Origin: Steromphala cineraria
Lineage: Eukaryota; Mollusca; Gastropoda; Trochida; Trochidae
Assembly: GCA_916613615.1 (NCBI GenBank)
Contig: OU744734.1
Location: 32,930,301-32,994,300, forward strand
DNA length: 64,000 nucleotides
Direction of reading: 5' to 3'
Position numbers and translations under genes: made by a program. Below, piece by piece: positions 9,127 to 59,568 of the stretch. Position 1 is the stretch's first letter, and the number at the start of each line of letters is the position of its first letter. The notes beneath the pieces were generated by a model that was not told where the DNA came from, made no database searches, and saw only the letters and a list, made by a program, of their open reading frames with translations.

Positions 9127-9318
9127 ATGGATCTGATTCCTCGTCCTAAGCTGCTGTCCTCCAAGAGTCAGTCCCGGAGAACCCTGGACACGGAGGATTC
9201 GGGAATATCCAGAGATATGGAACTAGATCCGGACTCGGAGAGTCCCCGCTGGATGAGGATGATGACGGACTTCGACTCCTCCAGTCAGGGGGGGAAGTGG
9301 GGACAGATATTCTCAAGG
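9127..9318 (+). CDS. Gene A exon 1: cytoplasmic N-terminus
   Basis: It starts with [13 protein letters not shown] and ends with donor AGG|GTAAGA, phase 0, after 64 codons. It is rich in Ser, Asp, Glu and Arg, with possible phosphorylation sites ([20 protein letters not shown]) and no hydrophobic segment. I chose this exon because its phase matches the acceptor before the transmembrane exon and because gene B has a comparable first exon, also ending in phase 0 (its 34 codons include PKWIYLLEGDQ). The 13.5-kb intron between it and exon 2 makes the link less certain than the other junctions. Confidence 0.6.
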
Positions 9319-15300: not shown

Positions 15301-18300
15301 TCAGAAGCAATATGCAAAAAACTTTAGTTGTTGACTAGATATGCTATTTTTCATTAAGTGAATATTAAGTTACAAGTACGAATACCATGAAACAGAAGTA
15401 GTTTATGTTTTATATTTAATCCGACGAAATTCAAATTTATGACTTACACTTGTGCCGTATTCCCTAGTCGTAAATACAAATGTCAATAATTGTTTGATGT
15501 ATTTCATTATCATAACATAGCAATTCATACAAATCTTCAAATTTGCATTCTTATGTAGAAAACGTGACGATTTAAGGTCGCATTATACTTATGATGGCCC
15601 AAGATTACAAAAAGATGTTAAAGAAGGCATTATTTAAACATATTCTGATTTTTTCAGAGAAGTTTATATAGGTGATCGTAAACTTTAAATATGTGTTGAT
15701 AGCGCAAAAGAAAAGGTATCAAGTGCACTCTATGTAGGACAGCTAATTTCGTATTCCATTCTTGTCATAAAATAAGATATATTTGCTGTAATATTTAAAC
15801 CAATTGTAACTTGAGATTATACATATTGTTTTAATGTAATGCTTTACACCTAACAATATACACAAGATTATAAGATTATTATCTAAAATTAAAATAATTT
15901 GTCAATATCTAGGTAGCACCATTCTCTCCCAACAGAGGCAACTCAGTCATACCTGAATTAGCATTCTCTCCCCACAGAGGCAACTCAGTCATACCTGAAT
16001 TAGCATTCTCTCCCAACAGAGGCAACTCAGTCATACCTGAATTAGCATTCTCTCCCCACAGAGGCAACTCAGTCATACCTGAATTAGCCTCTGTTCTATT
16101 ACGGCTAATACACGGGAGAGAAAGGTAGAAATCTGATTGGAGGCAATCGAAGTTAGTTGTGCAATCAGCGACGCCGTTTCAAAAGTGGGCATTCGCAAAA
16201 CCTCGGCAATCTCCGTGTGGTTCGTGAAAGCATTCGTTGAAATTTAACATCCAGGGGAGGTAATTATTCCTTTTACAAAACATCGCTTTTTATCTTCTCA
16301 TTAGTTGTTATTTGGTTGGTTAGTAAAATAAAATCTATCATAAAACAAATAGTAATCTACACAATTATAAAACAGTTTCTATCTAATGAAAATCCCTATC
16401 CATATCTGATTTTCAAATTGTTTCCCTCTCACACTGTAAATGAAAAATAAACATAAAGACATAATATTTTCCATGTCACTATACGACCATTAAGAACTCC
16501 CCAAGTCATGGATATCCAAAAGGTGTTTTCATTGGCTGCAAATAAGGGAGCTAAGTTAGGGTTAAAACACGAGGACGAGGTTATGCTCGGGTTTTCAAAA
16601 CCTGAGGAAAGAATGCTGAGCGGAAAGTAAGACCGAAAGCGAAGCTTGAGGTCTTACTTCCCGCGAAGCTTTCTTTCCGAAAGTTTTGAAACCCAAGCAT
16701 AACCGAATTCGAGGGTTTTAACTAACTTAGATACCGTTATTAAACATTTATTAAAAAACGCAATCATTTGTGCATATTGTAGTATTTGTAATCATATTTT
16801 GAGACCGATTGATCATAAAAAATGAGAAAAAAACAACAAATATCTAGGATTTATGTTTGGCCGTTTTATTTTAACATTTATTATTGGATTACATTACTTT
16901 ATACTGTCGCTTTAATTCTAATAAAAAAACGATTAAATCAGTTTCCATTAAAATAAGCAGTGTGTTCAAACGACTTTTTGACATTGACATAGCACAAAAT
17001 GCACGTGCAAAGCATTCTTCGATGTGTAAGGTTTTACAAATGACAATCGACAAGTCACGTGGTTGATACCGTATTTTGATCCTTTAAATTTATCACAAGT
17101 TAAAAGGTGTAACACTGTAAATATCAATTATGAATGTTTGTATGCATTTAAAATTTGAATCAAGTGCAATTGGATATTATAATGCTTTAAGACCGATCTT
17201 TTTTTACCGAAATCAATAGATCGTTTAACATAGCCTTCACTTCTATCTGGCCCGTTAGAGTAGTGCTTGCTTGCGGTCCAGAGGGTTGAGGGTTCGAATC
17301 CCGCACTTTGGAAGCATTGAAACTTTGTAGATTTTTTCAAGATAGTATGGACTTTGGGGTTAGGCTATACATTGGAATATAAAACCCTTTGACTTTGAAA
17401 TATAAAAACCTTCCAACCCCCGAGTAGGTCTTACATATGAACACAAAAACCTTCCAACCCCCGAGTAGGTCTTACATGTGAATATAATGCCCTGACTTCC
17501 CAATGTAAACCCTCCTTGGAGGTTATTACGAGAAAACAAGAAACCTCCAAAACAATAGACGAAATCCCGATAGGTCTCTAATTTAAGTTACAATTTTTTG
17601 CAGCTTTTTGTAGGCGTAATAGAACAGAGGCTAATTCAGGTATGACTGAGTTGCCTCTGTGGGAAGAGAATGAGGTAGCACTTATCTTTAATAATCTATT
17701 GTTTGGTAAAGTAACACAATGTACATTCTAGAATATATACTAGAACCAAAAATTATATTTCTCTTAATTGAACACTTTTTCATTTCATTTGATATTTTAT
17801 CTAAGTCTTCTTACACAATCTCATGATAAAACCTTTCATTTTGAAAATAGCTTTTTTAGATAGATGTTTGAATGCAAGATGATGTGAATTGTCTTGTGAG
17901 CCTTAAGTATCAATTGAATGTTTCTGAAAGTCATTGAAACGGGTTCATCTGCTGTCGTGCTCAACGTCTCACACAATTAGACACAGTTAAACAACGCAGT
18001 TATGGACGGTGGCATGAACACAATTAGACACAGTTAAACAACGCAGTTATGGACGGTGGCATGAACACAATTAGACACAGTTACAACAACGCAGTTATGG
18101 ACGGTGGCATGAACACAATTAGACACAGTTAAACAACGCAGTTATGGACGGTGGCATGAACACAATTAGACACAGTTAAACAACGCAGTTATGGACGGTG
18201 GCATGAACACAATTAGACACAGTTAAACAACGCAGTTATGGACGGTGGCATGAACACAATTAGACACAGTTAAACAACGCAGTTATGGACGGTGGCATGA

Positions 18301-21300
18301 ACACAATTAGACACAGTTAAACAACGCAGTTATGGACGGTGGCATCAACACAATTAGACACAGTTAAACAACGCAGTTATGGACGGTGGCATGAACACAA
18401 TTAGACACAGTTAAACAACGCAGTTATGGACGGTGGCATGAACACAATTAGACACAGTTAAACAACGCAGTTATGGACGGTGGCATGAACACAATTAGAC
18501 ACAGTTAAACAACGCAGTTATGGACGGTGGCATCAACACAATTAGACACAGTTAAACAACGCAGTTATGGACGGTGGCATGAACACAATTAGACACAGTT
18601 AAACAACGCAGTTATGGACGGTGGCATGAACACAATTAGACACAGTTAAACAACGCAGTTATGGACGGTGGCATGAACACAATTAGACACAGTTAAACAA
18701 CGCAGTTATTGACGGTGGCATGAACACAATTAGACACAGTTAAACAACGCAGTTATTGACGGTGGCATGAACACAATTAGACACAGTTAAACAACGCAGT
18801 TATTGACGGTGGCATGAACACAATTAGACACAGTTAAACAACGCAGTTATGGACGGTGGCATGAACACAATTAGACACAGTTAAACAACGCAGTTATGGA
18901 CGGTGGCATGAACACAATTAGACACAGTTAAACAACGCAGTTATGGACGGTGGCATGAACACAAATAGACACAGTTAAACAACGCAGTTATGGACGGTGG
19001 CATGAACACAATTAGACACAGTTAAACAACGCAGTTATTGACGGTGGCATGAACAGAATTAGACACAGTTAAACAACGCAGTTATGGACGGTGGCATGAA
19101 CAGAATTAGACACAGTTAAACAACGCAGTTATGGACGGTGGCATGAACACAATTAGACACAGTTTAACAACGCAGTTATGGACGTTGGCATGAACACAAT
19201 TAGACACAGTTAAACAACGCAGTTATGGACGTTGGCATGAACACAATTAGACACAGTTAAACAACGCAGTTATGGACGGTGGCATGAACACAATTAGACA
19301 CAGTTAAACAACGCAGTTATGGACGGTGGCATGAACACAATTAGACACAGTTAAACAACGCAGTTATGGACGGTGGCATGAACACAATTAGACACAGTTA
19401 AACAACGCAGTTATGGACGGTGGCATGAACACAATTAGACACAGTTAAACAACGCAGTTATGGACGGTGGCATGAACACAATTAGACACAGTTAAACAAC
19501 GCAGTTATGGACGGTGGCATGAACACAATTAGACACAGTTAAACAACGCAGTTATGGACGGTGGCATGAACACAATTAGACACAGTTAAACAACGCAGTT
19601 ATGGACGGTGGCATGAACACAATTAGACACAGTTAAACAACGCAGTTATGGACGGTGGCATGAACACAATTAGACACAGTTAAACAACGCAGTTATGTTT
19701 AGACACAGTTAAACAACGCAGTTATGGACGGTGGCATCAACACAATTAGACACAGTTAAACAACGCAGTTATGGACGGTGGCATGAACACAATTAGACAC
19801 AGTTAAAACAACGCAGTTATGGACGGTGGCATGAACACAATTAGACACAGTTAAACAACGCAGTTATGGACGGTGGCATGAACACAATTAGACACAGTTA
19901 AACAACGCAGTTATGGACGGTGGCATGAACACAATTAGACACAGTTAAACAACGCAGTTATGGACGGTGGCATGAACACAATTAGACACAGTTAAACAAC
20001 GCAGTTATGGACGGTGACATGAACACAATTAGACACAGTTAAACAACGCAGTTATGGACGGTGGCATGAACACAATTAGACACAGTTAAACAACGCAGTT
20101 ATGGACGGTGGCATGAACACAATTAGACACAGTTAAACAACGCAGTTATGGACGGTGGCATGAACACAATTAGACACAGTTAAACAACGCAGTTATGGAC
20201 GGTGGCATGAACACAATTAGACACAGTTAAACAACGCAGTTATGGACGGTGACATGAACACAATTAGACACAGTTAAACAACGCAGTTATGGACGGTGGC
20301 ATGAACACAATTAGACACAGTTAAACAACGCAGTTATGGACGGTGGCATGAACACAATTAGACACAGTTAAACAACGCAGTTATGGACGGTGGCATGAAC
20401 ACAATTAGACACAGTTAAACAACGCAGTTATGGACGGTGGCATGAACACAATTAGACACAGTTAAACAACGCAGTTATGGACGGTGGCATGAACACAATT
20501 AGACACAGTTAAACAACGCAGTTATGGACGGTGGCATGAACACAATTAAGAATATTTTAGATGTGTCATATGAAGTCACACCTATTGACAAGAAAGAAAT
20601 ATAATAATAAACATGGTCACTGGTGCGATTAACATGAAGTGCTATAACTTAACATCATTTCTATTGATTCCATATGCTACATTTAGCGAACATTTTGTAG
20701 AATTAATTTTGAAAAATAAACACGATCAATGAATATTTAAAAAGACACAGCATGATTTGCCGAACTATGCTGAGATAGGGGAAAGTGACGTCGCACATTT
20801 TCGCCTAACGTTAACAAACCCAACTTCCAATAAAAGACACTTTTATAACACATGCATGCGGTGTTTTCACTGGGGGTTCACCGTCATGCTATTCAAAAAC
20901 CGACTTTCCTTTTGTACTTGCAAATATGTTCATAATAACCAATAAATACCAGATCAAGATGTCAGAACTTTTGACACTAACGTACTAACCTATAGCCAAG
21001 AGCCTTACGTATCGCAACCATAAAACGTATGTTACGTTCTGACGTCATTAAAACATTTGCAGTCTCTAATGGACCAGTTGAAGAAAGGCAAACTGAATAT
21101 TCAATAAATCCTCACACTTCTCTTCCGTGTAAAGACAAATAGATTAAGCCCTTCCCGTCAATTTAGATAAAATTGTCAAGCCCTGATTTCAGCCAATCAA
21201 AACCGAGGATATCCAAGTGCGATGTTAATCATTTATCCCTTCATTCTTTGCTTACTCATCCGCTTGCAATATTGGAGCTAAGTGGGAGACGTGGATACAT

Positions 21301-24300
21301 ACATACCCGAAGCAAGATCGGAGTGGCTTCGACAAGGAGTTGTACTTTTCGTAATGTTATTCTAATAAAGCTTTAAGAGATTTACCAAGAAGAAAACTCT
21401 TCTCTAACTTTTCGTAATGAAGTTGGAAACCTTTAGACTACCAAGGATATCACTGAAGGTTAGTTTTTTTCCAATTTTAAATTTTAAAATGATTTTATTT
21501 TTTAATTTAAAAATAAATGAGAGTTATACTTACTTTTTGATTTACGAGAACATGGTATTTTTATAGATTAACAAATTCCAATAATTCCAATAGCGACGTT
21601 CTTGAAAACACACAATAATCCAAAAGCGTTTTTTCTTGAATTATGTTATGATGAATCATGTATTTCAAATTTGTGTGACTAAAATGTTACTAGAGATCTC
21701 TATTCCTTACCTCTATAACTAAAGGAATATGTTTGTTTTATTTCGTTTTTGTCATGAAAACCTCTTTTGTTAAACAAATAGACTCGTGATTGTTGAAATA
21801 CATAATTAGTAATAACTGGAAGTATCAAACATTATGGCTATGAAACATAAAAAAAATATAAAAAAAATAAAATAAATAAATAAATAAAATATAAAATGTT
21901 TGGAAACCATCTGAAATAAAAATCGACGAGGTTACGAAAACACTGTTAACTATATTGATTTCGTACTGCAATATATATATTGATATACAGCTTATATATC
22001 GCAATAATATTGATATATATTAACTTTACTCTACACTCTACTTAAAAAATATCAATTAGCTTGCACATTAAACATTTGATAAATTTCAAATCTTTCGACT
22101 ATAACTCTAAAAGATGAAATTTGCTATAAAATATGTTTGATTTATATGTTTAAAATTTTAACTTTAATGAAGAATAAGGCATAATACATATATTCCACAG
22201 AAAAATACTTATCATGTACATAAAAGCATATCACTGTGATCTAGAACAGGATGTTTGAATCAATTTGACTAGGACTGAAAATAATAGTGCAATTGATGTA
22301 TTGCACAAATCATGCTGCGATATATTATTATTGCGACAATATTGCACAGCCCTAGTATGAATGTCAATGGTTATTGCATCATAAGTTATTAAAATCAACA
22401 CGAATTAGATTGTCATCCTTTAACCATATTTTTAATACTCAAATTTGATTGAATAACCTGATTTTGTATATGGGACAAACGACAACAAGTACAAACCCTT
22501 GCTTCCAACTTAGGTCACCGTATGGCAAAAAAGTAAAACGCACAATGATGTCATTAACAGTCGTCAAAAACTATTTTACATATTTGCACCATTTTCAGTT
22601 CTCGTCCATGATGGCTTCAATGATTGTTTCATCTCACAAGCAAGAAGGGTACATGCTGATTATAGATTTAGGCGTAAACTTACAACAAAAAGTTGAGGAA
22701 TAAATATATAACTCTTGCAAATCAGCATTTACTTTATCGAAAAAGTGAAACATCCTTTCGAAAGCAGGCGTATTATGACGCATTTCCGTTCCTTGTTTCG
22801 CAGCCGGCACTTCGGTTCATTGGGCAGCCGAACTCCAATGGCCTCTTCGCGGCTTCTAAACTGGACGGTAAGGCTCTGAGCAGTCGAGAAGCCGGGCTGA
22901 ATGAACCGTATCAGGAGGAGCTGGAGCCGTACATCTCCAACAACAGCACGGGCTCCTACACCGAGTCTCTACAGTCATACAAGGAGCAGAGGAACAGTCG
23001 GCGGAGGAATACCATCTTTCTCGTACTACTTTTAGTGGGACTTATAGCAGTTATTGCTGGCATAACTGCAGCCATATTGTGGAGCTTGATAGGACGGAGA
23101 GAAGGTAAGTCTTACTCATTCTATACTCGTAAATTGTCTGACAAGTAGATGACATATGGTGACACTCTAAAGGTTTGGACCGACAAACAGTATTGGAATC
23201 GATCGATGAATATATGTGGTTATACCTATTTCACAACGATGCGTTTTCAAGAGTGTAAATAATGCTTTATTTAATGATCAGGGTATTTAAAGGGTCAAGT
23301 GTTTGAATACTAGAATACTGAATTAAAAATTACATTTACTGTAAAACTTTGGTTGGTTGTAGTGTAAGTCAAAGTTTCAGTTTGAGTCCTTAATACTAAA
23401 ATCCTTTAGATGAAAAATCAAAATGCATAATGTGTGAGCATATTTGTAACCCTTCATCTGTAACACAACAGAGGCAGTGTCTGGACGGCTAATTGACCCA
23501 GTGACGGGTAACAATGATGATGCAAATGGAAATCTCCAGCCTAGCTCGACAACACAATTTTCTAATAGCTTTGAAAGTGCGAGCCAACACGGATCGACAG
23601 GTACATCCCACGGAATGTCTGTGTCGGGGTCCAAGAGGCATGGCACTGTGGGGACAGAAATCATATCCAGTGTTGGGAACCAGGGAGGCAGAGACTCACA
23701 AGCGTCCTTTTCGCGCCCCATTTTAACTGCTTCGAGTGATCAAATAGATTTGTCAATGGAGATTACAGTTTCGACCCAAAGCTTAACGCAAGCAGTTTCC
23801 TTACACTCTGATGTGCCGTCAGCAAGCTATTCACCGAGCACTGAACGTTTAATAAATACTAATCAAATTGACACTTCCCTGCAGACCAACGTTGTAGCCA
23901 CTAATGACCTAACACTTGAAACACCCGTACTTTCAACTATAGAGTCGGTTGATTCTGCATCACTTGCTCAAGATACGCAATCTAACCAATTGAGCTTTTC
24001 AGACACAGCGCAACTGAGCAGTTCGTCACTGAAAATACAAAGTGTGGCTAATATGGGTAGTCTATCACCTTCAAATACGGCTGATATAGGAACAGTTGGA
24101 TCTTTTACAGTCTATGGTGGTGATCTTGGAAGTGATGCGATTGATGGTAGTCTTGGTGGAAATATGGGTAGTTTATCTCCTTCAAATACGGCTGATATAG
24201 GGCTTGGTGGATCTTTGACAGTCAATGGTGGTAATCATGAAAGTGATGCCATTAATGGTAGTCTTGGTGGAAATATGGGTAGTTTATCTCTATCAAATAC

Positions 24301-42998: not shown

Positions 42999-43004
42999 AA
43001 TAAA
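42999..43004 (+). terminator. Candidate poly(A) signal for gene A
   Basis: AATAAA about 1.06 kb after the gene A stop in A-rich sequence. Variant hexamers closer to the stop cannot be excluded. Confidence 0.3.
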
Positions 43005-45306: not shown

Positions 45307-45408
45307 ATGGAAAATGAAAACCCGGATTACCCGAAATGGATTTACCTTTTGGAAGGGGACCAGTTCCAAAAGTATATGAACTTTGTCAAAACTCGAGATT
45401 TTAATAAG
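45307..45408 (+). CDS. Gene B exon 1: cytoplasmic N-terminus
   Basis: ATG at 45307 gives MENENPDYPKWIYLLEGDQ and 34 codons up to donor AAG|GTATGG, phase 0, which matches the phase-0 acceptor of exon 2. An upstream ATG at 45252 makes only a three-codon reading frame before a stop. Its size and phase parallel gene A exon 1, though the sequences are not clearly alike. An intron of 6.1 kb follows, so the link needs transcript support. Otherwise translation could begin at the ATG at 51546 in exon 2. Confidence 0.5.
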
Positions 45409-48400
45409 GTATGGTTACATGATGTTTGACATTTTAGCATATTCATACGTTTTTTATCAATATACTCACAATTGTGTTAATTCAGAATGAGTTTCACACA
45501 CGAACCATAAACGCCTTTAAGACAAAACATTCTGAAAAATCAATTTAAAAATAATCATTTAAATAGTTTAGTTTTGTTCGATTTAACAGAATTTGTCCAC
45601 AATTGTGGTCAGAACGAGGTGACAGGTATGACGGATGTTGCAATCAATCAACCTTCAGCAGAGATGGTTAACGTTATTGTATGTTCAGTTATACATCATA
45701 TTTACAGTACACTTTATGTAAAATGAATCAACAGGAAACCCTACGCACATTCCACGGGTTTTTCTCTTCACCAGTGAACCTTAACAGATTATCTGCAGTG
45801 AACTTTCTGAGACAAATCAACTCCAAAATATTTTATCCAAGCACGAGGAATTCATTGCTGTCATGTGGAAGTGAATTCAAATATTCATGATTATCATTTC
45901 AAATACGTGCACTGAAATTTGTTAACATGATTTGGTTAAAACAAAAACTGGAAAAATTACATTTCAAACTACTTCATATGACATGTCAGGACAATAATAA
46001 GATACAAAGGCATATTTGACTTTCAATACATGACAAGTGTATTAACATTGTGATTGTGTCTAGTTTCTGTCTTCATTTGATGTTAAAGTGCAAAATCAAT
46101 GATGTAAATCATGTTCTCTAAATGTGAATGATATGCTACTGAAAACTTATATAGGCGGAAAATGTTTCTTAGACATGTTCGTCAAGACTACGGGTCACCA
46201 GGACTTAAGAACGAAGACTTGTCCTCATGTACATCTCACGTCACAAAACTCGTATTGTTAAAGTCAGAAACTTTAGTCTCAAATGTGTCATGAACTTGTC
46301 ATGCTTTGTAATATCTATCATAACAGCCTCCTTGACGGGGAAAATTCATCACTACAACCCTAGGTGTCATGAAATGTACATTACCATGTTGTAACTCTAA
46401 TCAGCTTTATGTCATGACGCTGTACATGACGACTGGGTCGACACGGTGTCTCTCTAGGTCAAATGTCATGTAAAACTGACCTGTCACTCATAAAACAGCT
46501 TATCTCAGAAATGTACATCTGCCTTGAAACACACACCTGCGCGTTAATGAGACAAGGACAGTTTACTCGAATTTTGTTAGGATGTCATCAAATTACTGGT
46601 TATCATTACCATTTATTATTTATTACCATTTTTATGTATTTCAGACTTGAAACTTTATTATGTAAGCAATTTGTTGCCATAATAATATCAAATAGGGGCT
46701 TTAAATTGTTAACTATACCAACCACTGTTTAAACTGACATGTTACACTATGTCTTCCTGACATTAGTTCAAATTTAGCATAATGCATTGACAGAAGAGAA
46801 CACATTTCAAAATGTTAAGGTGTCACATGGTAATAATAAGAAATATCTAGAACAATTGTAAATATATGACGTCGATTTGACACAGATCTTTCCTAGTAAA
46901 ACATTGCTATAATTTACATCTAAATGTAGCTGTTGCTTTAATCTATGATATATGCCTTAATTAAACAAACGGGTAAAACTATATAATGATATCCCTGAAG
47001 TGAACCCACGACTTACGTAGTTTTTATTATAAAATGACATATGACAAAATGATATAATAGTATGTACTAAGATAATATTATATAATGTGATGAGCGACCG
47101 TTCCGGTGTTGTTGTACACAACTAATTAAAGGGGCAGTAGCACGTTTTAAGGGGGAATATAAGGTGAGGTCAGGAAAATGAAAATAACTGGTTCCAAATG
47201 AAAGACAATGTATTTAATCTAAATGGAGCAGTAATAATTCAAATATATAACGTAAGATTCAGCCATGCGATTCCTTTATCTTACAAAAATGAATTAAAGG
47301 TGTTCACACAAAAATGGCCGCCAATGGATTTTATGTGAATACTCATACTTTGTCCTCTGACTATGGGTGATTTGCTTGTGTAATGTGATTGTTGACACTG
47401 TCAATATAATACATTAGGCATTTACTTACAATTATAAGTGCAATTTTTAAAATATAAAATTATCAAAAAATGTGCTACTGCCCCTTTAAGGAAACCACAT
47501 TGACGTGTTTGATAGTTGTTGTTGATCACAAAAATGGCCGCCAATGGATTTTATGTGAATACTCATACTTTGTCCTCTGACTATGGGTGATTGGCTTGTG
47601 TAATGTGATTGTTGACACTGTCAATATAATACATTAGGCATTTACTTACAATTATAAGTGCAATTTTTAAAATATAAAATTATCAAAAAACCTGCTACTG
47701 CCCCTTTAAGGAAACCACATTGACGTGTTTGATAGTTGTTGTTGATCACAAAAATGGCCGCCAATGGATTTTATGTGAATACTCATACTTTGTCCTCTGA
47801 CTATGGGTGATTGGCTTGTGTAATGTGATTGTTGACACTGTCAATATAATACATTAGGCATTTACTTACAATTATAAGTGCAATTTTTAAAATATAAAAT
47901 TATCAAAAAATGTGCTACTGCCCCTTTAAGGAAACCACATTGACGTGTTTGATAGTTGTTGTTGATCACAAAAATGGCCGCCAATGGATTTTATGTGAAT
48001 ACTCATACTTTGTCCTCTGACTATGGGTGATTGGCTTGTGTAATGTGATTGTTGACACTGTCAATATAATACATTAGGCATTTACTTACAATTATAAGTG
48101 CAATTTTTAAAATATAAAATTATCAAAAAACCTGCTACTGCCCCTTTAAGGAAACCACATTGACGTGTTTGATAGTTGTTGTTGATGCGTAGAGTAGAGA
48201 AGTCTTACCAGAGCTGTGTGAGATCTCCGCCTGTCCGTGTGGCGGTTACTATCCAGAGAGTGCAATAAGAAACTTTAACTCACATCGTGATTATCTGAAA
48301 ATAGTATTTCAGACGAAAGATTAGTAGAACAATAAGGACAATAATTCTTATGGATGAACAACTTCTTTATTCTGTGTAAGCGACGTTTCGACATAGATTT

Positions 48401-51400
48401 TAATGTCGTTAGAATCTATGTCGAAACGTCGCTTACACAAAATAAAGAAGTTGTTCATCCATAAGAATTATTGTCCTTATTGTTCATCACACCAACTTCT
48501 AGAATGCCAATCAAAGAAGAAAGATTAGTTAATATGGAATTATTAAATATGATGATGATATTCAAGCTGATCATGCTCTAGGCTTCACGTAATCATGATG
48601 ATCCTATTAAAATGCTTTATCCATCTTATCAATTGTCACATGTGACAATATCGACGGTTCATCATCACAGCAATCACTGTTGTCTTTGACACTACGAAAG
48701 CACAGGACATTTTATATATATAATGTCTGGAACCTACTTCACCTTAAAAACCACAAATGTCACAAAATTTAAGTGGTATCAAAGCGAAATTTTACATGTT
48801 TATGGACCAAGAGTAAGCCAAGAGGAGAACACTAGTTTTAGGTATGTTTCCGTATTCTGTTAACCACAAGACGACGTCGAAGTCAGTGTTATGAATTCCT
48901 GCCATTTTCAAGAATTGTAGCTTGACATCCCTTTGAAAATGAACGGACAAATTGATAAAGTCCCTATAATGCATTTCTTCCCCAATCTTTCTGCAATGCA
49001 ATTGCCAATCGTTTGTGTGTCTAGGGCGTATTATGACGTTGACGTACATGTTTATTTAATTCATATCGTCGATGTTTTAATTTATTTGGCTTGAAATGTA
49101 GTGTTTGAGAAGTCATCAACAATTTCTTTACATTAAAGGACATTTCAATCAGCCATCTGACGTTCTGCAAGTGGATTCACGCGTTTGTCGATAAATAACT
49201 GATGCAGGTAACGTTCATGGACGTTGTCGAAATTGTGATTTGCTTCTCAAATTCTTCAGAAACACCAATAAACCACATTTTTGTGTGCTAAATATTGTAT
49301 CTCACACCATCACACTGTCTCAACAGAATATGTTGACTTGTGGCATAAACTATGGGCAAAATTTTCTTTTTTCCAACTTTGAACAATCCAAAGTCACGTT
49401 TTTTTCTAATGGTTGTTATTGACAATTTTGTGCGTTTTCAGTAAACCAAAGTCTCCTAAAGTTTCTTAGGTTCGAAATCTTGATTGTAAAACGCCACTTA
49501 ATAAGATTGAGTTCTTTGAAACCACCAAGAACAGGGGCGATAACTGGCCTTCATGGTCGAATATCCATTTCATGGAAACGCTTTTGTACAGTTTGGTGGA
49601 CTTTTACACCCAAATCAGGGATGTTGTGAATAATCTGTATCCCTGTGACAAGAGAATGAAGAAAAACGTGACCTGTATTTAGAGATTTTAGGTTATGGTG
49701 GCAACTCTTTGATGCACACATCTTTATCTCTTTTGACCGGAAATGGCCTGTAGGAACGATAATGCGCGAAAGGACGATGATGAATATTCGATGCCAGACT
49801 AGTGTGAATCATGCAACTTCGGTTTCCGACACATTATCGGTCGGCGCATTATGGTAACCTTTATTTCATTTGAAATTGAATAGCAAAATTTGGAATAATA
49901 TGAGTGCCTTTGATTGATTAAAGGTACCACATGATCTAGCGTTTACTCTTACATGAATTCTGCTATATATTTTTTCTAAATAATCTTTTTCCAAAATAGT
50001 CTCAAATAAACAAGAGGTATCAAATTTTCGATTTGGTGTTCAAAAGCCGAAAACCATCATAAAACAAAGACGTATTGGAAGGACATATTTAGATTGTTTA
50101 ATTTGTTTTTATACTCAACAAAAATTCTTAAAATCACCTATGCGTTTCTTTTTTGGGAGAGTATATAAACTAAAATGACATTATAACCTTGTTTAAGAAA
50201 AAGTATCGCGTTATTTATATAACTCATTTTTGTGAAATCACCACCGACGTTGCTTTCGTCCATCTCTAACTAAACTTTACACTTATTGTAAATTAAATGT
50301 TTGAGCCACAGGTAGTTATATTGGGTCTTGTCTAAGGTTAACTTATTCACAATGAAAACAAGGACAAGGTTATAGCCAAATCATGACGTATTAAATAACG
50401 TGCACGGTATGCTCAAATTCAGCTAGACATACTGCCCTGACCAATAGAATAAAGGACCTTTTATTGAGAACAGGTCAGATAAGTGACCTAATACCTATAT
50501 ATTTGACCACTTAAGGTACAGAAGTGATTTGGGAAAGGCTCCTGGAACCTGGATAACGTCTCTTGTTGCAGCGTTGGACAGGCGACAATGTCTCAAAATC
50601 AACGCTATGTGGGAATTAAGATTGCTATGTTGATGAAAAATCATTTATGAACTAAGTGATGAATCAAGGTTGTCAATTGATAGAAATATACATTTTAAAG
50701 GACGTTTTGTTTCCGACATATTGTCCATATTACACATCCATTTGGGTGTATTCGCTGCAACCAATTTCACGAATACTTAGCCAATCTTGGCCAATAAATA
50801 ATAAATATTCCAGTTTACAAGTACATTGATACAAATATGATTTACACCCGCACTGTAATAATCTCATTTCTTCAAATTATTCTTTTGATCAGTGTATGGT
50901 ATAATTGTAGGGCAGCAACTATTAGGACTGTTCCATTTCATAGGTGTCTATGGTATTTCTATCTAAGTTTTCACCACCGATGATAGTCAACCTGCAAATG
51001 ATTTTACCATGATTAGTCCATATCAGACGTTTGCTGTGTTTTGGTTTTGATTTGTCCACAAGGTGGCGTTAAAATTGCTACCTTGTTTGGCAACCACTGC
51101 AACAATCTTTTCTAAGATGATTTACAAGTCTTTTTGAAAAATTCTCTCTCCCCCCGCGATCTTTCTAGACCCATTGCTGGATTGAAACAGATATCATTGA
51201 GGCTACGTTTACTTAGATTGGGTTTATATGTTTCACTGGCCTGAAGTACGTTTTAGCGAAACGTCTTTAATTGTTTTCTAAAAAAATCAAAACGGTTAGA
51301 ACTGTCCCGTTTTAGCTCAAGCTGTAAGCATTTATATAAGATGTCGTAAAAGTAATACAGTTGAATGTTTTTTGTTGTTTTTATACAAATCCAAAATTCT

Positions 51401-54400
51401 CAAATTATTGTGCGTGATCTTATTCGAAAGTGTGTAACAGGTTAATGATTCTAAGGTTTGCGATCACCAGATTCTAAACAATTCCAAAAACTCACCCGAC
51501 ACGTCACAACCGCCTTCATATCAGAAGTCATGGGTAGCGGAGGATATGACGTCACATCCGGCCGATCCTGTCATGCACCCGGAGGGAGAATACTCAGAGA
51601 TCGCTGAAGAGAAACCACTTCCTCTTCGAGTCGGCAGCCTCACGCTGGCGGAAAAGAGAGAAAGACGGAGACGTACTCGCACGTACGTCATTCTTGGGAT
51701 ACTAGTGCTCTCCCTTGTTGCTATGATGGTGGCACTGCTAGTCCACTTCCACCTACAGAAATGTGAGTTATCTCCCTTCTTATGATTCTTCACGTAGCGG
51801 TAAACAGTAATACTATTTATTAAGGCATTAGAAAAGATTACTATATATATATATGTATATAGAGTTTCTGATTGAAAGGACAATCTCATCGGGCCATTTT
51901 TATGGAAACAAAATTTGTGTGGACAATTCAATTTATGCATATAAAGTATATGATTATAAGATTAAACATACAAGTGGGAGGTTATATTTTTGTTGATTTT
52001 TATATGGCAATTTGATAACGAAGAAAGCACACTCGGCAAAATTAACAGTCAGAAGTGAAGCCAATCATCGGCGCTACGAGTGTATAAAGCCTTGCTACGG
52101 CAAAACAAAACATTGTTGTTGATTTTTATAATATATCATTTGATAATCAAAAGAAATAGTTCAATTTCAATAAAAAGTAAATTTGATCAAAGAACAGCGT
52201 TTTATTTTAGCATTTCCCAGATAAACACGATCGCTGACCGTAAGTCGACAGAACAGGCTGTTGTTTTAGAATTGACCCAATTAATTGACCACGTTTACCT
52301 TACCAGTAGTACTTACAAGAGTTAGGTTTCAACAAAACCATAAAAGTAAACGAGATAGCCAGTTCCTTTTAAGAGTGAGTTCGACTCATTTTGTATCGCT
52401 TAAGTTGCTTTCTCTCGTTTTTGTCCAGTCGTCAATATAAGCTTGCTCGTCAATTTTATACAGGTATGTGTTCCAAACAATTATCGGTTACTGATGTCAA
52501 ATCGCAGTTACAAACATGGTGACTACAACACATACCAAGGTTCCTCAATAATGATGCAGTCGCTCATTATTCAGAAGCCTAACTTATGTCACAGTTATAT
52601 AAATCATGTTGTAACTACTTGTTCATTAAGACATGCTACCTATCTTTGAAAATACATAAAGAACAATGGAACATAAATTGTCATTTCCAAGACATCAAAG
52701 CAAACGCCTCTATGTTGCCGTTGAATAAATTATCTTTTTATTCTGAAAGAAAGCAATACGAGCCTGGAGGCCGACACCACGAGTTATTTATTGCACTTGT
52801 CGGACCGAGGAATGATGGCAATAAAGCCACTGTTGGGCGATCTCAAGTAATCTTAGTAATCTAAGTGTGTCAACAACATTTCAGGGGGAATAACCTCAAA
52901 ATTAATTTTATCCAAACTGAATTCTTCTTACAAAATTCTTTGTCTGGTTTTATCCCAGTATATTTTTCACATGAGACAACTAAATATGATAACTATAAAT
53001 TATATATTTCTTACAGTGTGCAACAATGTATGTTTTAGGATATCTGCGAATGTTGAGTATTTCTGTTAGTCAAAAAATCATTATTTAATGTGTGTATTTA
53101 ATGTGTGTTTGAAATTAACATTGATGAATAATGTTAGAAATTACGACGTTATTATTCCCTTTAAGTATTTATTTTGCTTAAATATGATATCAAAATAATA
53201 TTCAGTTGGGTTTTTTTTACATTCCAGCCCTTTTCGGTTCATCTTCAAGTGAAACAACGGATGTGACGACACCGGTCCCATTTTACCAAAGTTTCACACC
53301 TCAAGATAGCAAAACAACTAAAGAAACTATACAAAGAAGTTCTAGTATTACTAACAGCAATGGTAAGGGGTGACAACTTAAACTTTATCTTCAATGAATA
53401 CTTAACTCGTAGTTCATAAACCTCAATTAGCGCGGTTAGCCCCATATGCAATTGGCTCATGTTTAATTCTAATTCAGTCCTATTTCCTGCAACATTATTG
53501 CTGAACCTCTCCCAGAGTCATGTCAGAAGGTGGAATGACAATTAGGAAGAGAAATATATGTGGGTGATAACTTTTAAAAATCGTGGTATGTATTAAAAAA
53601 AGACATCCATATATGTCCCCATTCTCGATAATCCAGAGCTTACGTTACGATAATATCTCCACGAAGTAGACGAGAACAACAGAGGGATCAAAAACCTGAA
53701 AACTCAACCTTAGATCAGAATGAGACTATTTTATAATTTATCAAGGATGAATTATATCGCAAAAACCTGCTAGGACATTCTTTGAATGGTTTAAATCAGC
53801 TGAAATGTAAAATGTATCAGACATGTAAGCATTTGAGTTTAAAATGTGTGTCATTTTGCTTAGATGTATCCAAGATAGATGAACCGTTTACCTTTAGTTG
53901 GGATGATCGGTCAAATGCTAAATTACAATCATCGTTATGCTACAAGCGTAGAACAGTTCATTTATATCTGAATTTCCACTAAAGCGGCGTCTCTAAATAT
54001 TGGGCCTTATAATTGAAGTCAATAGCATGTCAAATAATCAAAGTTGCATATGTCCACTTAGAAATAAGTTTGTTTGTGTATTTTCTAACCCATGTTGTAA
54101 ATAGCTGTGTCGGTAGGGACGGGAGCTGTGTCAGTGAAGCCTCGTACTAAATCTGTGGTTGCTATTTCATCCTTTTCCGATGACGTCACTACCGGTGTAG
54201 CGGAAGTGTCGAGCCCATCAGGTAAAGGCTGATAGTGCCTGGGTCTGTATCTGATGAGCGCCATTTGTGCTCGTTACAGTTACATATCTATATCGTCTCT
54301 GTTACACTATCCTGCGGTATTTGAAGGCTCTTCTTGTTTAAGATTGTCTTACCGTCTGCTTTAAATCGGCCAAGTTCCGAGGAATAAAATGTTCAAATAT

Positions 54401-57400
54401 TAGCTTTATCGAACTTGATCAACAGCTTGTTTTGGTCATAACGAATATGGAATTCTCGATCCTAATTTAATTACTTATGAAGTATCGTTGTGAAATCGCC
54501 ACTGTGTGATGTGAGACAATTCATATTAGGAACAAGCTACATTCCTTCAGATACTGCGTGTGGGGCTAAAAGTCTATGCGACTGCTAGTGCTTTTGATAT
54601 ATAACATATTCAGCTTTTATAAAAATTATATATTCTGCATCATACCGCTCTGACAGAACATGTGCATTTTCTGTTATGTGCTGCATCGGAGTGAACGTTT
54701 CATCCATTAAGTTTGATTTGCATTCTCGACAATTTTGTAAAAGAACGATACCGTACTGTACGGCCTAAGTTGTTCTTGTAAATATAGATTCCCATTGAAG
54801 CGCTCCTTCCTCAAGAGATGGTTAGACAATTATATTATATTATATTAAAATATCATAATTATATGGCAATTATACATGACTGGCGCTAGTGAGAGGAAAA
54901 GTAAAGATTACAGAGAATAACATTATAGAAGTTGTAATCCTGTCTCAGGGTACGAACGTTACGCTAACTCCACTAATCTGTACCCTGGGCTCAGAAGCTT
55001 GATTCGCTCGCGCGGCTCGACTTGGGACATAGCCAATGAAATCATTTTCTCGCCACCTTCTCGATAAATTTCAATGAGAAAATGATGTGATTGCCTACAT
55101 TCCAAGTCGAGCCGGGCGAGCGAATCTAGTTTCTGAGCCCAGGGTACAGATAAGTGGAGTTAACGCAACGTTCGTACCCTGGGACAGGATGAGAAGTTTA
55201 TTATAAACTTGATACAGCAACAGCTAGATGAATCAGTTAATGTGGTATCCTATTAAAGAGATGTAGTTCTACGCATAATACTTCTAAGTTCCATTACACT
55301 GACAGCTAAAAATGTATATACATGAATATACACCATTAGGATTCTATGCATGCCAATGGTTTGTAATATGTATTTTGATAATTGCTATGAACCAGATTGA
55401 TTACTCAGAAATAAAGAATGCTCCAAATATCTGCTTTCGGTTTTGTTCATATTTTATCTGTTGGATGCTGGCCCGCTTTGCATATTAATCTACGAGTATG
55501 CATGTACTGGATGTGTATCTAATAGCTAACACACTGACCAAGTTTGCTACTCCTTATTTTCTTAAGTCTCGTAGCTTTCGAGAAATGAGGTGAGGTGATC
55601 TGGAGTTTAACGCTGCTTTCAAGAGTGTTTCACTTATATTGCGGCCGCTAGTATCATTGCAGGGAGAAAGCCCGCAAACACCATTGTGGCTACGTATTGC
55701 GAGAAATCGAAAATTAACGGCCATTTTGACGGAGTGCCTTTCAAAATTTACATAAATTCTGTTTGACAAAACCTACACAGTGATAAATTAAGGAAAGCGG
55801 CAATAAGGAAAGCGGGCCTGCTCTATGTAACACAATTCTCGTTTGGCTCGGGTATCTCAGGTGTTGTAAATGACGTGACTATATGGGTCATTTACTAATC
55901 ATCCTTTTAATACAAATTAAGATTTAAGATTATTCACTTTTAAAGGTATATGAAAAACTTGGTCCCTTTATTTTAAGTTTGATACATCAACGTAAGCCCA
56001 TAAATATTGAAAACTAGTGATATCTACCGCGGAAAACTGAAATTGACAAGCAAACTATTATGTCTTTTACATCTCTAAGACACTTTGATGTATATATTTG
56101 CAGTATTTGATCACTTTGAAAACTCGAAAAAAGGTTTATTATATTCTGTTCTGAAACCGCAACTTCAAACATTTTCCCAAAATAAAGGTATCCCATTACT
56201 ACTGTTTCGAACCTATTGCCACCACTTGCCGATTGAAAAACGGAAAATGGAATAAGATACCTCAGTTTTAAAGAAAATGTAGATGGTGTTGTAAGAATGA
56301 TGTTGGAGATGAGTTCCATTATATCTTTAGATGTGAATATTTTACTTTAGAAAGAACCTTGTACATACCTTTACATTTTTCAAAGAGACCAAATATGCTC
56401 TATATATACCAACCTCGATAACTATTCAGAAACCAAAACAACAAAAGAAAACATTGTTAAAAAACTTAGCAAATTTAGTAAAATCATAATGCAAACTGTA
56501 AAATCTTCCGGCTAGTCAATTATCCGCCTGTATGATGCATTTACTGTCATGTTGTACCTCATGTGCCGAGGATATCGGCCTGGTCATGAGTGTAACAAAG
56601 TTCAGTTCTGATCAAACTCGATGCTTTTGACTGTCCATGTATTTTGACATACATGTACACGTCGCAAATATTATCATCTAATATTCAACACACACGACGC
56701 TTTGTTTGTTTGATGCACTTTTCTTTGTATTTGGCACGTTATTTGATGTTCATGTATTTTACGTTACATAATACTAATATGATACAATATTGGTATTTGG
56801 CTGTACACGACACTGAATTGATCTTCTTACATTCGACGTGAAGTGACAGCGAGTAACGTGGTGGCCACCCTGTCTGACAAGTCCGTCAGTATCGAGTGTA
56901 TCCTCAACGGTATAGCTGCCTGGGAGTACATCATTGTTGAGAAAATTTCTGGAGACACTTTTGAGTTGGCCAAAGTCTCCTCACAGAGTCATGAGACGTC
57001 CCGTCCAACAGAGACAGCGGATCCACGGATTGACGCGCGCACTGTCCGCGCCGGAAGCAGGACCAAACTTGTTGTTGAATTATCTCCCCCTGAATGCGGT
57101 GATAGTGGAAACTACAAATGCACAGCCATTATCAATATGAAATCATCTCTCACACTGAGCTCACGGTTCAAGGTGGTTTTTACATGTAAGTAGTTTACTC
57201 AATGTTTCAAAACTGATAAACAAACGATTTGTATAATAACGATAGTTTGTATCATGTTTCACTGCAATTAATAGCCAGCCTTCAATCGATCATAGCAATA
57301 AACAACGAGCTGCATGTGTAATTTCTTTGACGACTTCCGCTCAAGTCGTGCAGAAAAGTACAGACAAGCTTGTTTACTGATTCAAAAATGTGCAATTGGA

Positions 57401-59568
57401 AAAGAGGATTATTTCTACCCCAATTAAAAAATTACTTCAATGAACAATGGTGTAAATAATCCTCTTATATGCATTCATTTTAAACGGGCAGAGGCACGTT
57501 TTCAGAAAATTTTATATTTCAAAATTTTCACTGATAATTGTACGTTAATGCTAAAACTATTATTTTGATAGTGTCAAAAATCTCATTACTCAAACCAATC
57601 ATCCCTAGTCAGAGAACAAATTATGAGGTGTCACATAAAGTCCATTTTTGTGTGAACACCTTTAATTCATTTTAGGCAAGAAATAGGAAGTGCATGGCTG
57701 AACTTTACATTAAATATTTGATTTATTACTGTTTTTAAAGGTTGAATACATAGTCTTTTAATTGGAACCATTCATTTTCACTTCCTGAAATCACCTTATA
57801 TACCCACAATAAACGTGCTACTGCTATTCATAGTTCAGTTGAGTGATGTAACTTACTTCTCTGTTTTAAAATATGAAAAATTATCGATTACTAAGAGCAG
57901 GTTATCCTGTGATATACATCTGGGCATAATATCCCTTTAAAGCCAAGAGTTCATAAAGTCCTTTAAAACGTAAAAGTCTAATTGAAGTTGGTTCTGATGG
58001 TGAATGATTCTATACCCTAGTTGACTTCATGTAAAGAAAACCGAAATACACAACCTTAAAAGGGCAGTAGCACGTTTTTTGATAATTTTATATTTTAAAA
58101 ATTGCACTTATAATGGTAAGTAAATGCCTAATGTATTATATTGACAGTGTCAACAATCACATTACACAAGCCAATCAACCATAATCAGAGGACAAAGTAT
58201 GAGTATTTACATAAAATCCATATGCGGCCATTTTTGTGTGAACACCTTTAATTCATTTTTGTAAGAAAAAGGAATCGTATGGCTGAACCTTACGTTATAT
58301 ATTTGAATTATTACTGTTCCATTTAGTTTAAATACATTGTCTTTCATTTGGAACCATTTATTTTCATTTTCCTGACATCACCTTATATTCCCCCTAAAAA
58401 CGTGCTACTGCCCCTTTAATGGATACTGTTTCGCGCCTGTTATCACCTTATTGAGTCGTATTTTAAACATTAATATTCTTCTTCAGCGCCAGTTAGGAAA
58501 CCAGTACTACACATGCCTATTGAAGTAGTCGAGAACAAACCGACCCAGCTGAAGGTCACGTGGGATCCTGGACTTCCGGCTAGTAATGGCGTCTTGCAGT
58601 TCCTCGGTATTGAAGAAGAGAATCTCACATGTGTAGAAAGTTCCAGAGATGAGTGTGCGCCAGTCAACAAAACCTGTGAGTTCACCCCTCAAGCAGCAAA
58701 CAATATGTCAGCCATTCAAGTGAAAGTCGTCATGACAACAGACAAAGGAGTTACGTCCCTTTCCTCTCTATCTGAAAATCTCTACGTTGTTCCTGGTACG
58801 TACATCGCTAAACGCTTCATCTTATTTCTACGTGTTGTTATTCCTTACACGTTAAGCCATAGTCATGGCTTTGAGGGTACATGTATATACACTGACTATG
58901 TTACGATGAAGTATGAAGCGCTGTAAAATTTATCGATGCTAAAGACGTTTTGAATAAAATATGATATTTTAGTTCATGATCACAAACAGTCGTACACAAA
59001 ACGATGATAAACAAAGACTGAAAGCTGAGGTTGTTAAGTTGTATGTTTATCGAGTGAGAAATGAAGACAATGCTATCTTTGTTTCTATTGATATCCTTTA
59101 TTCCTTATCAATCTGTCCAATGCAAAATCTAACCTGAGACACGTGACAGCAGTTTCCGTTCACGGATGCCTACCCGCACCGTCCAGATAGCTATCGAATG
59201 ATATTAACTTACAGACCGTTTAAACATACGACTTTCGATCGAAACTAAGAATTTGAGTGTTATCCATCAGTATGATATACATGTGTTATAGGTTTTCACT
59301 GCTGAATCTCATGTTTGTAGTAGCAATAGTTCTTTATCAATTCTAATCCTATAATGTTTTCTACTTTCGCTTTTAAATATTTCTATTTCCAGACGATGTG
59401 TGTAGCAACACAAACGAGCGCTATATTCAGCACCCCTACACGTGCGGCAAGTTCCTGGAGTGCAGTACCCCCGTGGTGCACGTGTTTCAGTGTCCAGACG
59501 ATGCCTGCTTCAACAGTGACCCCGACGCCTGCATCCACTCCATTACAAACACGTCGACACCTCTGTAG
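45307..59568 (+). CDS. Gene B: type II membrane protein with Ig, Ig/FN3-like and CBM14 domains
   Basis: Exons: 45307-45408, 51525-51762, 53228-53362, 54105-54221, 56844-57185, 58487-58795, 59393-59568 (1,419 bases, 472 residues plus TAG). Introns are GT-AG: phase 0, then phase 1 five times, as in gene A. Domains: cytoplasmic 1-86 with a YxxI motif at Tyr57; transmembrane helix 87-109 preceded by a strong basic cluster; Ser/Thr stalk 114-197; Ig 198-311; second beta-sandwich 312-414; CBM14 415-472. It is the compact tandem paralogue of gene A, lacking the 37-residue repeats, the Thr/Pro mucin tracts and the second CBM14. A chitin-recognising membrane receptor is a reasonable inference. Exon 1 is the weakest part of the model. 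Confidence 0.8.
45409..47129. other. Gene B intron 1, left part
   Basis: AT-rich sequence; no supported exon or repeat up to the MITE at 47130. Confidence 0.45.
47130..47485 (+). mobile_element. TTAA-flanked MITE copy 2 (356 bp, intact ends)
   Basis: Terminal repeats AGGGGCAGTAGCACG and its complement CGTGCTACTGCCCCT (right end TGTGCTACTGCCCCT). TTAA at 47126-47129 and 47486-47489. Same orientation as the copy at 6991. Its right half was then amplified (see next entry). Confidence 0.9.
47307..48186. repeat. 220-bp tandem array, exactly 4 copies, made from a MITE half plus flank
   Basis: Units start CACAAAAATGGCCGCCAATG at 47307, 47527, 47747 and 47967. Each contains the right 179 bases of the MITE plus 41 bases of flanking DNA ending GTTGTTGTTGAT. 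Copies 1 and 3 read AAATGTGCTACTG, copies 2 and 4 AAACCTGCTACTG, so a two-unit block was duplicated. Confidence 0.95.
48327..48485. repeat. 159-bp near-perfect palindrome
   Basis: Left arm GAACAATAAGGACAATAATT...CGACATAGATT pairs with AATCTATGTCG...ATTATTGTCCTTATTGTTC with only one or two mismatches and a loop of about ten bases near 48406. It starts about 140 bases after the 220-bp array. Confidence 0.85.
48486..51524. other. Gene B intron 1, right part
   Basis: AT-rich intron; no supported exon. Open frames at 48792-49049 (minus) and 49240-49422 (plus) show no recognisable protein. Confidence 0.45.
51525..51762 (+). CDS. Gene B exon 2: cytoplasmic tyrosine motif and transmembrane helix
   Basis: Acceptor CTTCATATCAG ends at 51524; donor GTGAGT begins at 51763; phase 0 in, phase 1 out; residues 35-113. 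The segment HPEGEYSEIAEEKPLP has Tyr57 in an acidic-Gly-x-Tyr-x-x-Ile setting, reminiscent of the hemITAM of vertebrate type II lectin receptors. The basic run KRERRRRTR (78-86) precedes the helix YVILGILVLSLVAMMVALLV (87-109). Positive charge on the N-terminal side supports an N-in, type II orientation. The ATG at 51529 is out of frame and stops early. Confidence 0.8.
51763..53227. other. Gene B intron 2
   Basis: AT-rich with a short AT-dinucleotide run near 51843. Nothing else recognised. Confidence 0.5.
53228..53362 (+). CDS. Gene B exon 3: Ser/Thr stalk
   Basis: Acceptor TTACATTCCAG ends at 53227, donor GTAAGG at 53363, phase 1 at both ends; residues 114-158. SSSSETTDVTTPVPFYQS and similar Ser/Thr-rich sequence, no cysteine. 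It occupies the position of gene A's giant repeat exon but has only 45 codons and no internal repeat. Confidence 0.7.
53363..54104. other. Gene B intron 3
   Basis: 742 bases, AT-rich; an open frame at 53782-53982 shows no recognisable protein. Confidence 0.5.
54105..54221 (+). CDS. Gene B exon 4: second stalk exon
   Basis: Acceptor TGTAAATAG ends at 54104, donor GTAAAG at 54222, phase 1 at both ends; residues 159-197. It encodes AVSVGTGAVSVKP and Ser/Thr/Val-rich sequence ending VAEVSSPSG. Corresponds in position to gene A exon 4. The acceptor has a poor pyrimidine tract, so the support is mainly phase and open frame. Confidence 0.6.
54222..56843. other. Gene B intron 4
   Basis: Contains the large inverted repeat at 54938-55190. 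No supported exons elsewhere. Confidence 0.5.
54938..55190. repeat. 253-bp inverted-repeat (foldback) element
   Basis: TCCTGTCTCAGGGTACGAAC on the left pairs with GTTCGTACCCTGGGACAGGA on the right. Pairing continues through CACTAATCTGTACCCTGGGC, GATTCGCTCGC and CTCGACTTGG with scattered mismatches to a loop of about 25 bases near 55065. Arms are roughly 110 bases; it is richer in GC than its surroundings. Confidence 0.85.
56844..57185 (+). CDS. Gene B exon 5: Ig domain
   Basis: Acceptor GACGTGAAG ends at 56843 (weak pyrimidine tract), donor GTAAGT at 57186, phase 1 at both ends; residues 198-311. Cys216 (VSIEC), Trp224, and Cys290 in CGDSGNYKC give the canonical Ig pair, 74 residues apart, with the textbook D-S-G-x-Y-x-C motif. 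Cys282, eight residues before Cys290, matches gene A's Cys2640/2648 pair, so the two domains are homologous. A V- or I-set fold fits. Confidence 0.85.
57484..57828 (-). mobile_element. TTAA-flanked MITE, diverged copy 3
   Basis: Left end ACGGGCAGAGGCACG after TTAA (57480-57483), right end AAACGTGCTACTGCTATT with decayed terminus. The interior is the reverse complement of the 6991 and 47130 copies and more diverged than 58060. Confidence 0.75.
58060..58415 (-). mobile_element. TTAA-flanked MITE copy 4 (356 bp)
   Basis: TTAA at 58056-58059 and 58416-58419 flank ends AAGGGCAGTAGCACG and CGTGCTACTGCCCCT. Inverted relative to 47130 and very similar to it, so probably young. Confidence 0.9.
58487..58795 (+). 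CDS. Gene B exon 6: second beta-sandwich (Ig- or FN3-like) domain
   Basis: Acceptor TTCTTCTTCAG ends at 58486, donor GTACGT at 58796, phase 1 at both ends; residues 312-414. It is the positional match of gene A's second Ig domain and ends NLYVVP as A ends LLIVP. It lacks the Ig cysteine pair: the B strand reads LKVTWDPGLP (Trp337 where Cys is expected), which looks more like FN3, and the F strand has VKVVMTT. Three other cysteines (360, 368, 375) cluster in LTCVESSRDECAPVNKTC. Three N-glycosylation sites are visible (NLT, NKT, NMS). Confidence 0.75.
58796..59392. other. Gene B intron 6
   Basis: 597 bases; no feature recognised. Confidence 0.6.
59393..59568 (+). CDS. Gene B exon 7: CBM14 chitin-binding domain and C-terminus
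   Basis: Acceptor CTATTTCCAG ends at 59392; phase 1 in; TAG at 59566-59568; residues 415-472. Six cysteines (418, 432, 438, 448, 453, 461) spaced C-x13-C-x5-C-x9-C-x4-C-x7-C. HPYTCGKFLEC parallels [11 protein letters not shown] in gene A's first CBM14, and the unusual x4-then-x7 spacing is shared. Eleven residues (with NTS sequon) follow the last cysteine. Confidence 0.85.

Follow-up and report, generated by a model that had tools for sequence, protein, structure and literature searches.

The stretch of DNA analysed here (the window), 64,000 nucleotides of the gastropod Steromphala cineraria (contig OU744734.1, positions 32,930,301 to 32,994,300), was placed on contig C41 of a 1.27-Gb, 281-contig assembly and carries two genes, A and B, arranged head to tail on the + strand, whose splice sites, phases and open frames all join. 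Eight exons of gene A (9127 to 41942, with a tentative start) join without a stop into a protein of 2900 residues, and seven exons of gene B (45307 to 59568) into one of 498 residues. Both read as a transmembrane (TM) helix and a stalk followed by immunoglobulin (Ig) and CBM14 domains, in the order TM, stalk, Ig, Ig, CBM14, CBM14 in A and TM, stalk, Ig, Ig, CBM14 in B. The tandem pair proposed by the initial annotation is therefore borne out, and its exon sets hold in outline, although they missed the last exon of A and the first exon of B. Judged by sequence, A and B are paralogous members of a mollusc family found in gastropods and one bivalve, and this family appears real, conserved and, as far as searches of open-access literature show, undescribed. 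Four public homologues, all named 'uncharacterized protein', are referred to throughout: P0001 (Haliotis cracherodii) and P0002 (H. rubra), both homologues of B, P0003 (H. cracherodii), a homologue of A, and P0004 from the scallop Pecten maximus.

The two gene models share one plan, i.e., a short exon 1 that exits in phase 0, an exon 2 with the remainder of the tail and the TM helix that exits in phase 1, phase-1 junctions from there on, and a single exon for each Ig and each CBM14 domain. In A, candidate exon 1 (9127-9318) supplies an ATG and 64 residues of cytoplasmic tail in an open reading frame (ORF) that exits in phase 0 at an AGG/gtaaga donor; among the GT[AG]AG donors scanned, it is the better of two distinct phase-0 donors reachable from an ATG within 5-22.7 kb, and both this exon and its join to the TM exon are proposed purely from splice signals. 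Exon 2 (22804-23104) completes the cytoplasmic tail and encodes the TM helix (KD 2.98), exon 3 (23472-29366) a mucin-like stalk with a 37-residue repeat in about 32 copies followed by T/P-rich sequence, and exon 4 (29496-30785) further T/P-rich stalk. The ectodomain consists of a V-like Ig domain 1 (exon 5, 31002-31325; 61% identity to that of P0003), a C-like Ig domain 2 (exon 6, 32905-33222; 54%), a first CBM14 domain (exon 7, 34070-34240; 60%) and a second CBM14 domain with the stop (exon 8, 41731-41942; 66%, E 8.9e-25, tblastn match 41745-41936), and a whole-genome search with Pfam CBM_14 also gave a match at the position of exon 8. An end of gene A at the stop after 34311 was ruled out, because exon 8 is reached from a phase-1 donor after 34240. 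Two minisatellites lie in the introns of A: one with a 47-bp unit (17971-20548, about 55 copies in two blocks, 98-99% match) in the putative 13.5-kb first intron, and one with a 45-bp unit (35938-40276, 96.5 copies over 4.3 kb) between the CBM14 exons, most of which is open as a probably spurious minus-strand frame of 1044 residues.

Gene B begins with an exon of an ATG and the first 34 residues (45307-45408), which matches the N-termini of P0001 and P0002 in tblastn (E 7e-5 and 3e-6), and continues with the tail and TM helix (exon 2, 51441-51762; KD 2.79; 60% identity to P0001 over 80 residues). Its stalk is formed by a Ser/Thr-rich exon 3 (53228-53362), with the same SLFGS join as in P0001, and by a weakly conserved phase 1/1 exon 4 (54105-54221). 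These are followed by a V-like Ig domain 1 (exon 5, 56850-57185), a C-like Ig domain 2 (exon 6, 58487-58795) that has lost the canonical cysteine pair and retained an extra cysteine, and a CBM14 domain with the stop (exon 7, 59393-59568). The ORFs at 54880-54999 and 55078-55203 were rejected as Ig exons, having no Pfam Ig match and lying on the arms of an inverted repeat (54929-55051 and 55076-55198; 123-nt arms, 87% complementary, 24 nt apart); this repeat, within an intron of B, looks like a small mobile element. The first intron of B holds four repeats of a 220-bp unit at 98% match (47307-48186).

Hydropathy reveals a single strong TM helix in each protein, preceded by a tail of 116 residues in B and, with candidate exon 1 included, of 134 residues in A. 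In five of five proteins tallied, the 15 residues before the helix are more positive than the 15 after it (net positive charge before/after: A 4/1, B 5/0, P0001 4/3, P0002 4/1, P0004 2/0), which indicates a type II topology. The predicted protein of B is shown by hydropathy, charge and the two Haliotis proteins to be a type II membrane protein with cytoplasmic tail, one TM helix, stalk, Ig, Ig and CBM14. For A the TM is assigned by parallel with B and not from an orthologue, since its Haliotis homologue P0003 is a model without TM. The type II tether of the initial annotation is thus upheld directly for B and by parallel for A, as is its very long mucin-like stalk in one copy: that of A measures 2396 residues, 51% of them proline, threonine or serine (P/T/S). 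Across the 32 repeats of this stalk, differences at the three codon positions number 34/30/55 with a dN/dS-like ratio of 0.60 (descriptive values, with no significance test); the excess at third positions and this ratio are as expected of a translated repeat. The stalk of B is 84 residues long with 45% P/T/S. In its tail, the motif EYSEI is common to all three B-type proteins and agrees with a YxxPhi sorting signal and, less closely, with a signalling motif of the single-YxxL type.

Homologue searches, in which 7992 and 7990 candidates sharing most words were scored, identified proteins of Haliotis and Pecten as the nearest to A and B among those candidates, which agrees with a mollusc as the source of the DNA. 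P0001 matches B with an E value of 5.6e-76 over 92% of a 464-residue query lacking exon 1, and in both P0001 and P0002 the TM, Ig and CBM14 exons of B are matched within a single chain, the TM flank being among the best-conserved parts of the B-type proteins. P0003, a model that starts within the stalk, shows 60% identity to A over 339 residues of ectodomain including both CBM14 domains (E 1.7e-92). The ectodomains of A and B themselves match in BLASTP at E 6e-8 (single comparison), and these A-B, B-Haliotis and A-Haliotis matches together indicate that the similarity of the genes is not due to chance. P0001 and P0003 are listed with an equal longest contig value (63398646), from which it follows that their genes probably lie on one chromosome in H. 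cracherodii too. More distantly, P0004 has an N-terminal TM helix and a PT-rich stalk followed by Ig-Ig, Ig-Ig-CBM14 and Ig-Ig-CBM14, and scores 134.5 bits against a profile of five gastropod ectodomains, as against a maximum of 4.5 bits in 200 shuffles of P0004. The order seen in A and B recurs in other molluscs, in two Haliotis B proteins and, with repeated modules, as a similar plan in Pecten. A search of the open-access literature, with subscription journals and preprints outside it, yielded no description of an Ig-Ig-CBM14 architecture in molluscs, which is weak evidence of novelty.

CBM14 exceeds the Pfam cut-off (22.1 bits) in both genes, with 38.3 bits for A exon 7 and 32.1 bits for B exon 7. 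Single Ig exons match Pfam weakly and below cut-off (V-set 14.2 and 14.7 bits, C2-set_2 14.5 bits), and the domain 2 exon of B has no Pfam match at all, FN3 included; the initial suggestion of an FN3-like domain there is abandoned, as this domain aligns with Ig2 of A and of the Haliotis proteins. Ig was instead recovered by fold comparison of predicted structures and by a family profile against PDB sequences, which matched antibody light chains from E 4.5e-7, in keeping with the Ig fold and B-F disulfide that mark the immunoglobulin superfamily. The proposed Ig-Ig-CBM14 order is accordingly confirmed, by profile search for CBM14, by family profile and fold for Ig, and by structure prediction at low overall model confidence. 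Domain 1 matches V-set in seven of eight modules, weakly, while domain 2 matches V-set in one and C2-set_2 in two of the eight. Among the matches listed, the best fold alignments of the Ig pair of the B homologue are with nectins, B7-H6 and butyrophilins (9-20% identity), all of which are V-C pairs; the A homologue aligns with V domains of scFv and, at a root-mean-square deviation (rmsd) of 10-14, with Fabs. From these models and profiles, the second Ig domain looks C-like, which would make the pair V-like plus C-like.

A further trait of the family is an extra cysteine in each Ig domain of every module; that of Ig1 precedes the F-strand position by eight residues (C-x-D-x-G-x-Y-x-C type). Both extra cysteines are present throughout the eight modules analysed first (8/8 Ig1 and 8/8 Ig2 domains), with the F-strand cysteine kept in 7/8 Ig1 domains and the canonical pair in 5/8 Ig2 domains. 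When four later modules are added, the Ig2 extra cysteine is found in all 12 aligned rows and the canonical Ig2 pair in 9/12, while the Ig1 motif is present in all four, Trp replacing the F-strand cysteine in one of them (module 2 of locus L039, described below). The Ig1 domains of that module and of the third module of P0004 have lost the F-strand cysteine and kept the extra one. The two Haliotis B proteins have the extra cysteine as the sole one of domain 2, and three cysteines in domain 1, which makes an Ig1-Ig2 bond the simplest pairing; in B of S. cineraria, domain 2 has three cysteines close together, and which of them is the counterpart depends on the alignment. This pattern suggests that the two extra cysteines form a disulfide locking the Ig pair, the other possibility being that they bond two molecules to each other.

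The same chromosome carries at least two further predicted loci, L039 and L040, so that the tandem pair is present as first described and is also part of a larger family that extends to the scallop protein. CBM14 is common in this genome (at least 150 matches, 150 of 150 scored out of 481 candidates). When the genome was searched with P0001 and P0003, all Ig and TM matches fell within the window; a search with P0004 gave no match. The extra loci derive from the CBM14 rows of the P0001 and P0003 searches and from a local Ig1/Ig2 profile search that covered the window plus 38 loci, each about 3 kb long, among them 8 of the 150 CBM14 places; the profile search pointed to more modules, all on C41, and four were read from fuller stretches. 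L039 (28.956-28.966 Mb, minus strand) combines a TM exon (hydropathy 3.07) and a PT-rich stalk exon with two Ig-Ig-CBM14 modules, a plan close to that of P0004. Its first Ig1 lies in two pieces (6402-6686 and 5908-6099) and is apparently split, the listed acceptors being in phase 0; the Ig1 of its module 2 was chosen by eye from the ORF list, not by profile. L040 (58.851-58.861 Mb, 58851001-58861000, minus strand) holds two copies, each with a Ser/Thr-rich stalk in the same exon as Ig1, an Ig2, a CBM14 and a second CBM14-like exon that is weak against the family profile (E 0.015-0.017). The copies are identical at 246 of 254 aligned residues (97%) over Ig1, Ig2 and first CBM14 and differ in the length of their stalk exons, and they look like a recent duplication. 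A whole-genome search with the Ig2 exon of L040 recovered only these two places, a TAG in one row lying past the donor of the exon. Except between the two pieces of the first Ig1 of L039, each junction at L039 and L040 offers a phase-1 candidate. In an unrooted FastTree phylogeny of 12 Ig2 domains, A groups with its H. cracherodii homologue (0.968), B groups with its Haliotis homologues (0.896), and L040 falls with the B group (0.947) despite having two CBM14 domains as in A, a placement on long branches from which nothing is concluded.

Other features were noted in passing. Dense clusters of CBM14 exons occur on contig C35 (62284617-62308982) and contig C2 (22220621-22318935), and no Ig1/Ig2 profile match below E 1 was obtained in the ten C2 and C35 loci fetched. 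Beside the module gene of L039, a minus-strand frame (L039:119-412) reads by eye like a short-chain dehydrogenase exon (TGXXXGIG-like). In the window, a 275-residue open frame (4548-5375) runs across a 129-bp tandem repeat and has no convincing Pfam match.

The explanation we favour, with a confidence barely above even, is that the A/B family consists of stalked type II surface tethers with a predicted architecture of a chitin- or glycan-holding tip and a recognising Ig head. The extra cysteines would form a disulfide across the Ig1-Ig2 joint and make the head rigid, and the CBM14 tip would bind chitin or a chitin-like glycan in mucus, cuticle, or a peritrophic-type or shell-side matrix over the epithelium, tying the cell to that matrix. 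More speculatively, the V-like domain might recognise a partner or a microbe at the boundary of cell and matrix, and the EYSEI motif of the B type might couple the protein to endocytosis or signalling. The architecture itself is shown by the sequence, while chitin binding, the disulfide, expression, recognition, an immune role and signalling are inferred. A broader and distinctly more tentative proposal is that molluscs independently evolved a membrane-tethered counterpart of VCBPs before the gastropod-bivalve split, with disulfide-locked V-C heads, chitin-binding tips and mucin stalks of very different lengths, as an adjustable layer of recognition where epithelium or haemocyte meets chitin-rich mucus. 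In either case, the family would provide defined genes with which to test chitin-based barrier immunity or cell-to-chitin anchoring in protostomes.

Several observations weigh against a recognising tether of this kind. There is no TM in the Haliotis model homologous to A, neither L040 copy showed a TM exon in the stretch searched, the interval between the copies included (the two may belong to a single gene, be secreted, or have their anchor further upstream), and the stalk of the Haliotis B homologue, 99 residues long, has just 30% P/T/S. Overall confidence in the structure models is low (mean pLDDT 53.9 and 46.4), and the two-domain alignments of the A homologue, at their rmsd of 10 to 14, do not establish a V-C arrangement there. 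The CBM14 matches of P0004 stay under the Pfam cut-off (18.3 vs 22.1 bits), and the first CBM14 of the family has an extra cysteine (CP-x3-C-F type) replacing the last one of the usual CBM14 pattern, so that binding to chitin itself is not assured.

A purely structural role comes close behind recognition, and we regard it as a serious possibility, if the less probable of the two: the proteins would be nectin-like adhesion molecules that attach the epithelium of mantle, gut or radula to a chitinous layer (shell, periostracum, cuticle or radula), with the Ig pair as a spacer or a cell-cell adhesion unit and no immune function. Molluscs make many chitinous structures, and the top solved matches of the B-type Ig pair, among those listed, are adhesion or ligand molecules. 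In PMC5549309, the terms CBM14 and Ig C1-set, C2-set and V-set are all over-represented in the mantle rim of the mussel Mytilisepta virgata (as gene sets, not as one protein), an enrichment that fits a structural role better than gut immunity. Against this, a repeat stalk of 2396 residues would be odd for tight attachment to a rigid sheet, and the conserved EYSEI motif hints at endocytosis or signalling. It is improbable, by contrast, that the ligand of the CBM14 tips is a polyphenol from plants or algae and not chitin, in the manner of EHEP, a sea-hare digestive-fluid protein: the best PDB sequence match of the CBM14 part among those listed is the 25 kDa polyphenol-binding protein 8in3, yet this match is modest (E 1.8e-6 for both A CBM14 domains together), and a chitinase, a chitotriosidase and a chitin-binding beak protein match as well. 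Least probable of all is an artefact of gene modelling in which TM and stalk belong to one gene and Ig-CBM14 to another; while no orthologue backs exon 1 or the TM exon of A and no TM exon was seen at L040 in the stretch searched, the full B order is found in two Haliotis proteins, and P0004 of Pecten as well as L039 follow the same plan.

True kinship with the chordate VCBPs, through a single ancestral Ig-Ig-CBM14 gene whose product is secreted in chordates and stays in the membrane in molluscs, is also improbable, if marginally less so than polyphenol binding. The VCBP-like architecture claimed by the initial annotation holds for the domain order, the V-like first Ig and the C-terminal chitin-binding-type domain; a V-V pair is not supported, and kinship fails on secretion and gene structure. 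Splicing frame 0, as used for VCBP genes, corresponds to phase 0 in the usual counting. As defined in PMC4008424, VCBPs have a leader peptide, are secreted and contain two V domains, whereas the A/B proteins have a type II anchor with N-terminal tail and stalk, a V-like domain paired with one that is C-like and not clearly V-like, two extra cysteines, and up to two CBM14 domains or repeated modules. Likewise, according to PMC2632668, the V domains of amphioxus VCBPs are split over two to three exons, all in splicing frame 0, with the secretion signal in exon 1; in A and B, by contrast, a single exon with phase-1 borders encodes each Ig domain, and most L039/L040 junctions offer phase-1 candidates. 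Given these differences in anchor, exon plan, second domain and cysteines, we do not file the family as VCBP, and the relation appears to be one of analogy, not membership. No VCBP chains were among the matches listed in the PDB sequence and fold searches, an absence that carries no weight. Known VCBPs are marked by gut expression, binding of bacteria and opsonin activity, and VCBP2/5 of amphioxus are hyperpolymorphic. VCBPs are a leading case of V-type Ig combined with chitin binding in animals without antibodies, and a separate family with the VCBP order would show that Ig recognition and chitin binding were paired more than once.

The family may also be set beside other known systems, each of which shares part of its plan. 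The V-C ectodomains of nectins, B7 proteins and butyrophilins resemble the Ig pair of the B homologue in fold, and these proteins, unlike A and B, are type I and have no chitin-binding domain. 8in3, which we take to be sea-hare EHEP, stands closest in sequence to the CBM14 part among the solved structures listed; it is a soluble protein that consists only of peritrophin-A-like repeats and lacks Ig domains, TM and stalk. Type II C-type lectins such as Dectin-1 are likewise stalked type II receptors whose tip binds glycans and whose tail has a tyrosine motif, but they carry a C-type lectin domain instead of Ig-Ig-CBM14; no homology is claimed. Within molluscs, the VIgLs, among whose names are FREP, CREP and GREP, offer a further parallel. 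As described in PMC9334734, gastropod VIgLs combine one or two Ig domains with a C-terminal glycan-binding (lectin) domain, and in this they are like A and B. However, FREPs are secreted, with a signal peptide and a fibrinogen domain (PMC7588048), whereas A and B are predicted type II TM proteins; and where VIgLs end in a fibrinogen, C-type lectin or galectin domain, the A/B proteins end in CBM14, with none of those three in their Pfam lists.

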